In this document: positions 4,540 through 27,100 of the stretch, piece after piece
Position numbering within the stretch: position 1 is the first letter of the stretch
Layout of the letters: every line of letters starts with the position of its first letter
NCBI RefSeq assembly: GCF_005405485.1
Contig: NZ_BJED01000029.1
Span: forward strand, 1-39,923
Source of the DNA: Enterococcus hulanensis
GTDB lineage: Bacteria > Bacillota > Bacilli > Lactobacillales > Enterococcaceae
Length of the DNA stretch: 39,923 bases
Reading direction: 5' to 3'
Notes under the pieces: generated by a model
What the model saw: the letters and a program-made list of their open reading frames with translations, nothing else
Databases searched by the model: none
What the model was told of the DNA's origin: nothing
Program-made: the position numbers and the translations under genes

Positions 4540-4547
4540 ACAAACAG

Positions 4548-4765
4548 CTTGAAATCAAACTTATTTTTCTGATAAGAAAATAAACACATTAAAAAGAAAA
4601 AAGATGCCAGTCCAACTTTTCCTAGTAATTAAGAAGCGAGGCACGCACAAGAAGTTGCCGCAGCTCAAAAGAAAGGGACAGCTAGTTGGATGGTATACGG
4701 CTTGAAAATCAAACTTATTTTTCTGGTAGGAAAAATAAATACATTAGAATGAAAAAGGAGTAGAG
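4548..4765 (+). repeat. Structured intergenic element R1, copy A (H-G-H modules)
   Basis: It fills the gap between deoC and the EIIA gene. A short hairpin module H occurs twice (4548-4591 and 4700-4746) around a module G (4603-4699). H folds as TTATTTTTC-loop-GAAAAATAA. G is closed by ATGCCAGTCCAAC pairing with GTTGGATGGTAT, twelve pairs with one bulged G. A second G-H copy is at 26647-26805. Both copies end just before an AAAGGAG ribosome-binding site. Function unknown; a structured leader RNA or a spread palindromic repeat would both fit. Confidence 0.7.
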
Positions 4766-25761: not shown

Positions 25762-26457
25762 TTAGAAAATAATATTGTCTTTGATCAATTCGATGTTTTT
25801 AATAAAAATTTTTCGATCGATCATTTTGATCGCGCCGCAGCTTTTCAAATCATGCATGATGCGGCTGACGCTGCTGGCGGCATTGATACCGCAGAAATGA
25901 GCAATTTCTTCATTCGTTACGACAAAATCAATTAAGACGCCCTCTTGAAACTCAACACCGAATTTATCGTACAGATCATAAATCTGGGTACAGACGGCAC
26001 CGAACTTGCCGTTCATCAGCATTTGCTGGGTTCGCTTCATTGATTTAAGCAACCGTTCGCGGTAATAGTTTTTAACGTAGATTTGCAGTTCAAAATTTTG
26101 ATTGATATCTTTCCAAAATTCGACCCGATCGATTTGATAAAGCTCGGCCTTTTCGGATTCGACGCGAATATTAAAAGGGGCATCGATAAATTGAGAGTAT
26201 TCATCCTTTAACAATGATACTACTTCGAGATCATTGATGTATTCCAAATTGAATTCGCGCCCATCTTTGGAGATGACACTGGTCTTGATGACGCCGCTTT
26301 TCAAAATGTAAACATGGTGGTCTTGAATTCCTTCGTAGAGTAAATATTTCTTATACTCTTTAGTTACGATCGGGAATTTTTTTTGTTTTAAGTAGTCTGT
26401 TAAAGCTGTATTGTCCAATTTTCCGTGATTCCTTCCGTGATTTGCTGAAATTTTCAT
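25762..26457 (-). CDS. Crp/Fnr-family transcriptional regulator
   Basis: A 231-residue regulator. A cyclic-nucleotide-binding-type beta-barrel covers ~25-115 (HHVYILKSGVIKTSVISKDG), followed by the long dimer helix and a C-terminal HTH at ~175-225 (TNEEIAHFCGINAASSVSRI). No FNR-type cysteine cluster for an iron-sulfur centre is visible: cysteines are few and far apart. The barrel lacks an obvious cAMP phosphate-binding motif, so the effector is unknown. It is convergent with the L,D-transpeptidase gene. Enterococcal relatives include PrfA-like stress regulators such as Ers, but I cannot assign orthology. Confidence 0.83.
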   Translation of the reverse strand: MKISANHGRNHGKLDNTALTDYLKQKKFPIVTKEYKKYLLYEGIQDHHVYILKSGVIKTSVISKDGREFNLEYINDLEVVSLLKDEYSQFIDAPFNIRVESEKAELYQIDRVEFWKDINQNFELQIYVKNYYRERLLKSMKRTQQMLMNGKFGAVCTQIYDLYDKFGVEFQEGVLIDFVVTNEEIAHFCGINAASSVSRIMHDLKSCGAIKMIDRKIFIKNIELIKDNIIF

Positions 26458-26646
26458 TGCTATTTTATCATAAGTGGGCGGGTATTTTAGTCAAAAGTAT
26501 GTTTAAAAAAGATACTAACAAATGTTAATGCTTTTTTTGAATAAAAAATTTCAAAGTCATTTCTCATTATGAAAGCTGATTTCCAGCTTTTTTTTTATCC
26601 GTATAATCAATCAAGTAAGCCAAACAAACTCAATAATATGAAAAAG
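26458..26646. other. Spacer with an orphan terminator on the plus strand
   Basis: Between the Crp/Fnr gene start and repeat R1 there is no reading frame. A good plus-strand terminator lies at 26572-26596 although no plus-strand gene precedes it. Confidence 0.5.
26572..26596 (+). terminator. Orphan rho-independent terminator
   Basis: AAAGCTG (26572-26578) pairs with CAGCTTT (26584-26590) and a T run follows. The preceding gene runs on the other strand, so this ends either a small RNA from 26458-26570 or read-through antisense to the Crp/Fnr gene. Confidence 0.6.
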
Positions 26647-26805
26647 GATGTCAGTCCAACTTTTCCCAGTTTATAAGAAAAGAGGGAAAGAAAAAGCTTA
26701 ACTGAAATAAAGTACAAGGAACTAGTTGGATGATATACGGCTTGAAAATCGAACTTATTTTTCCCGAACTTGGGAAAATAAATTCTTTATTATGAAAAAG
26801 GAGTG
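26647..26805 (+). repeat. Structured intergenic element R1, copy B (G-H modules)
   Basis: The G module is closed by ATGTCAGTCCAAC pairing with GTTGGATGATAT. Relative to copy A one C-G pair has become T-A, so the stem is kept. The H module (26740-26792) folds as TTATTTTTCCC-loop-GGGAAAATAA. Both ends share bases with 4548-4765, while the region between differs. It ends at the AAAGGAG site of the following small gene. Confidence 0.7.
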
Positions 26806-26812
26806 GTTATTC

Positions 26813-27100
26813 ATGAAGAAATGGACATGTGCAATGATCGAACGATTGGAATCGGCCTACAGGGTACGGTTTGAAAAGGAAGCAGTTTTAGTTTTTCTAA
26901 ATGATGCTTATCAGAATGCTTTGATGCTGAGAAAGGATTATACGCAGGAAAATGACGAAGCACTTACCGATTTTTTAGCGGCGTTTGACCACACGCGGGA
27001 TTTATTTATTAGTCAAGCGGTGGATCGTTATCCGTCTAACTATAATAAGGTCGCGGAAAAAATTTCTGATTTGAAAAAATTAAATGAGAGTATCGCATAA
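26813..27100 (+). CDS. Small helical protein of unknown function
   Basis: A 95-residue soluble, probably four-helix protein (begins MKKWTCAMIERLESAYRVRF). The size and helix content recall bacteriocin-immunity-like proteins, but I see no specific match and do not assign that role. The frame opens at 26726, inside repeat R1; AAAGGAG at 26796-26802 sets the ATG at 26813. It precedes the MFS transporter gene by 15 bases and is surely co-transcribed with it. R1 lies directly before its ribosome-binding site, as it does for the PTS EIIA gene. Confidence 0.7.
   Translation: MKKWTCAMIERLESAYRVRFEKEAVLVFLNDAYQNALMLRKDYTQENDEALTDFLAAFDHTRDLFISQAVDRYPSNYNKVAEKISDLKKLNESIA

Follow-up and report, generated by a model that had tools for sequence, protein, structure and literature searches.

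Two structured intergenic repeats of Enterococcus hulanensis probably belong to a mobile family of Enterococcaceae that inserts at Shine-Dalgarno sequences

The question raised by this locus is what two intergenic segments that share a paired structure and lie before unrelated genes have in common, and why they lie where they do. The window analysed here, a 39,923-nt stretch of Enterococcus hulanensis DNA (contig NZ_BJED01000029.1), had been described in a first-pass annotation as containing copies A (4548-4765) and B (26647-26805) of one such element, which was read either as an RNA fold controlling translation or attenuation or as a mobile palindromic family. Both copies are present where they had been placed, and the window holds more than this pair, namely a partial unit in front of copy A and a two-unit array at 106-372; all of these features are on the + strand. 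Copy A is made up of a partial first unit (4546-4604; 86% identity over 4544-4604, nhmmer match at 4546-4601 with E 0.037), in which the H hairpin and tail are kept and the G module is absent, and a full unit (4605-4760) with G, P3/H and a terminal AGGAG, which matches the covariance model R1 of the family with 127 bits. Copy B consists of the leftover tail of a lost upstream unit (26622-26648, read by eye), which ends GAAAAAGGA, and a full unit (26649-26803; R1 match, 136.6 bits). A Pfam search with the small protein encoded 3' of copy B (26813-27100; 94 residues) gave no match at E 0.001. By themselves, A and B have unremarkable folding energies (z −1.21 and −1.47, respectively), and the evidence for the predicted fold is comparative, not energetic.

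The comparison began with A and B as queries against the host genome (designated G000; 4.74 Mb, 47 contigs), which gave 70 and 79 matches, and 35 full units taken from 38 regions of that genome were assembled into an alignment, A1. In A1 helix G has 11 pairs and one invariant bulged G, and helix H has nine pairs. Sequence and covariation place the arms of G at 4605-4616 and 4685-4695 in copy A (bulged G at 4610) and at 26649-26660 and 26725-26735 in copy B (bulged G at 26654), while the H hairpins occupy 4715-4738 (arms 4715-4723 and 4730-4738) and 26755-26781 (arms 26755-26763 and 26773-26781). G and H are paired in 98.4% of the 699 cells of the 35 units, and double changes occur at 11 of the 20 pairs, in 96 cells, which is far beyond chance (25.8 in shuffled alignments and 2-11 in slid versions). 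The claim that a C-G pair of the G stem had become T-A with the bulged G retained holds; the 35 units divide into 18 with UA and 17 with CG at this pair and none is broken, and the change on both arms of the H hairpin between the two copies is also real. The covariance model R1 (156 positions) was built from A1 and used to search further Enterococcus genomes, where additional copies were found with both stems kept. Two larger alignments, A2 (the best 150 of 154 R1 matches in 75 host-genome sources) and A3 (67 R1 matches in 39 sources from E. pingfangensis, G354, and E. xiangfangensis, G355), are paired in 96.0 and 94.1% of cells, respectively, and double changes fill 470 cells in A2 (126.8 in shuffles) and 174 in A3 (45.9 in shuffles); both were fitted to R1 and hence lean towards it, which A1 does not. 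G.U pairs outnumber A.C pairs by 47 to 2 in A1, where 34 of the G.U are a constant second pair, leaving 13 vs 2, and by 269 to 52 over 217 units, where the constant second pair contributes 157 of the G.U. Because G.U is the commoner of the two, the sense strand is the likelier folding strand.

The paired elements G and H of the first-pass annotation are thus borne out, and a third, P3, had been missed. It was found by a mutual-information scan of alignment columns and joins the stretch immediately upstream of H to one downstream, so that P3 encloses H and has its end one base 5' of AGGA. By covariation its strands lie at 4702-4706 (TTGAA) and 4750-4754 (TGAAA) in copy A and at 26742-26746 and 26793-26797 in copy B. 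In order, it comprises N-N', Y-R, GA facing GA (a tandem G.A/A.G), and one further covarying pair (AU, GC or CG), and the tandem is invariant in A1 and in A2 is found in 67 of 74 units of class I and 37 of 43 of class II (the classes are defined by the right end, as given below). Double-change cells number 34 vs 12.9 in shuffles (A1), 134 vs 52.4 (A2) and 32 vs 10.1 (A3), and no shuffle out of 500 equalled the real alignment in percentage paired, in double-change cells or in covariation score. On the measures that tally pairs or pair types, shuffles often did equal it in A1 and A2, as is expected with three pairs. P3 is weaker than G and H, with 78.9-85.7% of cells paired, and in the A3 scan none of its three pairs is within the top 26. 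Neighbouring columns that do not pair also covary in A1 (100-159 and 101-159), and part of the P3 signal may be inherited linkage. Mere subfamily linkage was rejected as its whole explanation, as the direct counts beat shuffles and slid versions in all three alignments. A kink-turn was also considered and rejected: the tandem G.A has a covarying pair immediately on either side, with no 3-nt bulge.

How far the family extends was determined with R1. At E 0.1 the host genome of 4.74 Mb contains at least 150 matches, a few of them weak or overlapping, corresponding to about 150 units with a length of about 155 nt, with forms of 100-110 nt as well. The 150 units form 91 arrays of one to five units, and the 67 units of the two relatives form 51 arrays. 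All 20 genomes searched within the genus have matches (6-149 each), as do 44 of 105 genomes of the family under stricter filters (those 20 included), representing six of 17 genera, and 19 of 295 genomes of the order, where all positives are Enterococcaceae. The other genera mostly have units of ~100 nt with a short G loop, a type that occurs in the host genome too, and where their ends are readable these short units also run into GGAG before a start codon. In one genus (g13; genome G083) there are 0-17 R1 matches in 22 genomes, class II-like copies among them, and six genomes (loci L109, L349, L352, L353, L355 and L356) have one class I copy in front of the same gene, apparently an old shared insertion. 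Carriage by phages was rejected, as a phage collection searched with copy B at E 0.01 gave no match.

The placement of these units can be sorted by their right end. A unit consists of TG-YCA, a bulged G and stem G, a linker, P3 with its tandem G.A/A.G around H, a short tail, and then either AGGA (class I) or TTAGC (class II); arrays ending GGAG were assigned to class I and those ending TAGC to class II, and 10 of the 91 host arrays fit neither. Copies A and B are class I. Their ends had been put 5-10 bases before an AAAGGAG site, which is wrong in that AGGAG is the copy's own last five bases: at 4756-4760 it is the Shine-Dalgarno (SD) sequence of the PTS EIIA gene (start codon 4768), and at 26799-26803 that of the small protein gene (start codon 26813), at distances of 7 and 9 nt. 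An open-frame start codon lies 1-14 nt past the array 3' end in 54 of 91 host arrays and 46 of 51 arrays in the two relatives, with a peak at 7-8 nt, compared with 2/91 and 0/51 on the antisense side and with a high baseline of 12.7% (host) and 12.5% (relatives) at random positions; these counts describe units, the host regions having been chosen for holding matches, and not the genome at large. Division by class sharpens the pattern. Of the 52 host arrays ending GGAG, 51 have a start codon in the sense orientation (50 of them at 5-11 nt), against two of the 29 ending TAGC, and in the relatives 41 of 43 GGAG-ended arrays pass the start-codon filter, the first start codon of the other two overlapping the array end. 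Neither loss of the stems nor random position and orientation relative to gene starts, which would have spoken against the first-pass annotation, was found: the stems are kept and placement is far from random.

The left flanks differ in a corresponding manner. Where the first unit is intact, GGA stands directly 5' of 25 of 37 class I arrays (background 1.4%), the other 12 having something other than GGA, and a T-run is present in the left flank of 19/29 TAGC-ended but only 4/52 GGAG-ended host arrays. The 45 nt to the left of class II arrays whose first unit is intact have a median fold of −17.0 kcal/mol (31 host arrays), vs −3.4 (24 host arrays) and −5.8 kcal/mol (13 in relatives) for class I, with class II defined partly by the T-run in this comparison, for which reason the T-run figure above is taken from the right-end classes. 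Class II units mostly begin in or at the T-run of apparent intrinsic terminators. The array at the left edge of the window is of this class: immediately 3' of a T-run (GGGGGATTTTTTTT) there is one unit at 106-264 (R1 match, 98.4 bits) and a second at 263-372 (63 bits), followed in the sequence by the 5' arm of a third, truncated G module (to about 391). Class II units elsewhere, at L050:2784-3443 (−) and L065:3183-3340 (−), the latter upstream of an apparent hisS, were seen by eye to lie right behind what appear to be the terminators of T-box leaders (GGTACCGCG or GGAACCGCG, then a hairpin and T-run).

What happens at the target is seen where a filled site can be compared with orthologous empty ones. 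Between acoB and acoC the host genome has GGCATAGGA[unit]GTGAAAAGATG and the 12 others compared have no unit (13 of 16 acoC matches, three 40% relatives having been left out); the nearest empty site is GGCATAGGAGGGATAAAGATG in G019, the only one with an exact AGGAGG, and the others have TAGGGGGG-like gaps. Between the PTS IIB and IIA genes, where 13 of 25 loci from 35 matches were compared, the host has CAGAAGGCTTAGGA[unit]GGAATTGAG and G015 has CAGAAGGTTTAGGAGGAATTGAC, with no unit in any of the 12 others and longer gaps in several. At the gene for the dehydratase medium subunit (nine of 12 loci compared), the host and G015 are filled and seven are empty, with TTTAAGGA[unit]GGATTAAAATG in the filled state and, in five of the empty ones, TTTAAGGAGGAGTAAAAATG; the left copy of G015 is AGAA. 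At all three sites in the host the break is AGGA^G inside the SD, the unit is flanked by AGGA left and right, and the distance to the start codon is roughly unchanged. The match between the flanks extends to TAGGA at acoC and PTS but not beyond AGGA at the dehydratase site, so that a duplication of TAGGA fits two sites and only AGGA fits the third, and with flank agreement of this kind at three sites AGGA can be read either as a target duplication or as the element's own end. The three sites show class I units inserting at AGGA^G within the SD, in such a way that the downstream gene keeps a normally spaced SD. For class II, four sites were compared: two T-runs are interrupted by a unit and unbroken in relatives, one site is filled in both, and one is unmatched.

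Other sites suggest a longer history. Before whiA an H remnant and one unit are present in the host, H by itself in Enterococcus sp. MJM16, and nothing but the SD in E. avium and E. raffinosus; at uvrA three species have units. In addition, 34 orthologous array pairs are found among the host, E. pingfangensis and E. xiangfangensis. Such sharing of many sites between species, together with apparent H remnants, identified by eye, before the same SD of uvrA in several other species, would fit ancient arrays that no longer transpose, that spread as copies recombined with one another and as genes carrying them were transferred horizontally, and that are absent elsewhere through loss. This is quite unlikely in view of the three empty sites, where genes are closely spaced and the closest relatives compared have no visible scar. 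Changes within species are of a different kind, as comparisons of near-identical strains revealed no insertion and differences in unit number only. On megaplasmids of E. raffinosus, one strain has a single unit at the PTS IIC site and the three others compared have two; at trpB, three strains have two units and two strains have three. A partial unit lies in front in each case.

It might be asked whether the fold serves the genes that it precedes. The main rival to mobility is that each unit acts in cis as an RNA leader controlling how its gene is translated or how stable the mRNA is, was spread by duplication, and is kept because selection acts on the RNA. Orientation in sense at start codons is in keeping with such a leader, several sites are in short, operon-like gaps between genes on the same strand, the excess of G.U over A.C (13 vs 2 in A1 outside the constant second pair) suits a folded RNA, and P3 is one base from AGGA. 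Function in place would also fit the conservation of orthologous class I sites, where loops have diverged more than stems: for E. pingfangensis compared with E. xiangfangensis identity is 0.84 in the G stem, 0.91 in the H stem, 0.94 in the tail and 0.67 in the G loop (8 of 18 pairs intact on both sides), and between the host and those two species it is 0.78, 0.81, 0.84 and 0.66, respectively (4 of 16 pairs intact on both sides). However, the predicted probability that the SD is unpaired is 0.441 at 89 sites vs 0.425 for 164 control genes (p = 0.63), and accessibility is above that of the site's own shuffled upstream sequence at 49 of the 89; the SD would be neither hidden nor unusually open, and its sequestration or exposure by the leader was rejected as an explanation. 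The most discriminating result is that class II copies, away from start codons, have the same fold, with pairing in host units of 94.5 (class II) vs 93.0% (class I) in G, 98.3 vs 98.4% in H, and 78.6 vs 81.7% in P3. A fold under selection for translation control should be stronger in leaders, and as that of class I is not stronger, this argues against translation control. Further, the downstream genes are varied among those inspected, the number of units differs within one species as described above, and Rfam searches were negative, both over the window at gathering score and over 26400-27000 at E 1. A regulatory leader is therefore unlikely, and control of translation or attenuation, as it was originally put, is unsupported.

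Since class II, mostly without a start codon, keeps the fold as well as class I does, the fold looks like the element's own property, and most simply would serve recognition by its mover. The tail, and perhaps H, would be retained by ordinary selection on the ribosome-binding site, and at a number of older sites, seen by eye, only H and the SD tail are left. Two further candidate functions were rejected. A promoter inside the unit is not indicated, with no promoter- or terminator-like site in a scan around copy A and, around copy B, two promoter-like sites where 2.0 are expected by chance; terminator-like sites in the same scan of copy B number two against 0.3 expected, namely the H hairpin itself and a site at 26571-26591, upstream of the copy. 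A leader peptide starting at ATG-AAA-AAG-GAT in copy B was dismissed by eye, as other units do not keep the frame open.

The second of the original readings, a mobile palindromic family, is instead supported by the many dispersed copies, by orthologous sites that are filled in some genomes and empty in others, and by tandem arrays that vary in length. Copies A and B probably belong to a non-autonomous, mobile family of small structured repeats in Enterococcaceae that target and rebuild the SD. The sense strand would fold, in keeping with G.U being kept more than A.C, and a candidate enzyme acting in trans would recognize the folded ends and insert the unit next to SD or terminator signals. The inserted unit would become the 5' leader of the gene, with its SD tail then coming under ordinary selection, and the insertion may survive because neither the SD nor the terminator signal is destroyed. 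A bolder proposal is made tentatively, as it falls somewhat short of being probable: the family could be a transposable element lineage that targets the SD itself, with a sister form that targets terminator T-runs, using a folded sense-strand intermediate and a novel enzyme and regenerating the signal, such that it can sit within operons as the ribosome-binding site of the next gene.

The nature of the mover was approached by way of elements of the IS200/IS605 family, which insert without target duplication; their derivatives and REPs have single-strand hairpin ends and insert next to short motifs. The R1 units might be an IS200/IS605-type single-strand element cut down to its two hairpin ends and moved in trans by a Y1 (HUH) transposase, with P3 as the pairing of guide and cleavage site at the right end, for which IS608 offers the comparison. 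Such an origin would account for two hairpins, one with a conserved bulge, for folding of the sense strand, and for a short pairing on either side of the right hairpin, where the right end is presumed to lie, yet it is decidedly unlikely. Y1 genes were absent at E 1e-5 from nine of the 20 genus genomes, including the high-copy E. malodoratus (G009, 142 matches) and G003 (145), and a motif scan of 20 Y1 loci for unit ends gave single matches in three, none beside the gene and never on both sides. The interval from AGGA to the G stem is also too short to hold a left guide, and AGGA on both sides does not fit the no-duplication pattern of that family. A Y1 transposase was rejected as the mover, as it does not track copy number and no unit ends flank Y1 genes, and the same two features, no matching Y1 partner across high-copy genomes and AGGA on both sides, set the R1 family apart from IS200/IS605 derivatives and REPs. 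Nor is it a typical miniature inverted-repeat transposable element (MITE), in which, according to the available portion of one source, inverted repeats of 15-30 bp join both ends (PMC3733652). When the first 30 nt were scored against the reverse complement of the last 30 nt in 35 units, the mean was 10.5 vs 10.7 for shuffled sequences, with 13 of the 35 above their own shuffles, and a MITE with terminal inverted repeats was rejected for these units.

Among known systems the closest description is that of EFAR/Efa-1 of E. faecalis, the likeness being one of description. EFAR reportedly has modular lengths and inserts at terminator-like stem-loops, in which it would resemble class II and not class I. 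Efa-1 is described in the accessible text as a 163-nt pair of adjacent stem-loops found in 65 intergenic copies in Enterococcus faecalis (PMC2267715), and EFAR, which is presumably the same as Efa-1, is listed in an excerpt as the MITE of Enterococci (PMC3733652). As far as these partial sources go, the R1 family is like Efa-1 in occurring in Enterococcus, in being intergenic, and in its size (about 163-170 nt) and two adjacent stem-loops, to which the 156-position model with two hairpins plus P3 corresponds, and it differs in class I in that the same excerpts mention no SD placement for EFAR/Efa-1. BOX of Streptococcus pneumoniae is, in the part of its description at hand, modular with repeated middle modules (A1B2C1), folded, and transcribed at tested loci (PMC3049150); it is like the R1 family by description in being modular and folded, whereas it is over-represented between convergent genes and SD-exact placement is not among the features that this part mentions. 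A third counterpart, bcr1 of the Bacillus cereus group, is given in the excerpted sources as 147-167 nt long (PMC2267715), MITE-like, and often in UTRs or operon gaps (PMC3446304), and these are its points of likeness by description, while those excerpts make no mention of SD or T-run targeting. By analogy, the R1 family would work like such small structured MITE-like repeats (EFAR/Efa-1, BOX and bcr1), and differs from MITEs in being without terminal inverted repeats. A literature search of incomplete coverage, only partly directed at the SD and limited to titles and abstract openings, found no description of repeats inserted in the SD.

The general expectation is that small bacterial repeats land where little harm is done, and class I instead appears to land inside a gene's most position-sensitive signal and to restore it. 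The natural series before the same genes in relatives (empty, one, two or three units, or a remnant) makes the effect of an inserted leader on operon translation directly testable, and the precise junctions and two target classes (SD and T-run) would provide a handle for finding the missing enzyme.

Some arrays have features of their own. N runs lie inside L043, L061, L217 and L227, where unit counts are lower bounds and near-identical tandem units were perhaps unresolved by assembly, or masked. Class II-like copies in L354 (G071) and in L240 and L242 (host genome) appear by eye to stand between two inverted flank arms, as if inside a hairpin loop. Finally, the arrays L050, L064 and L238 alternate long-loop and short-loop units or two unit types as dimeric higher-order repeats, which suggests duplication of unit pairs.
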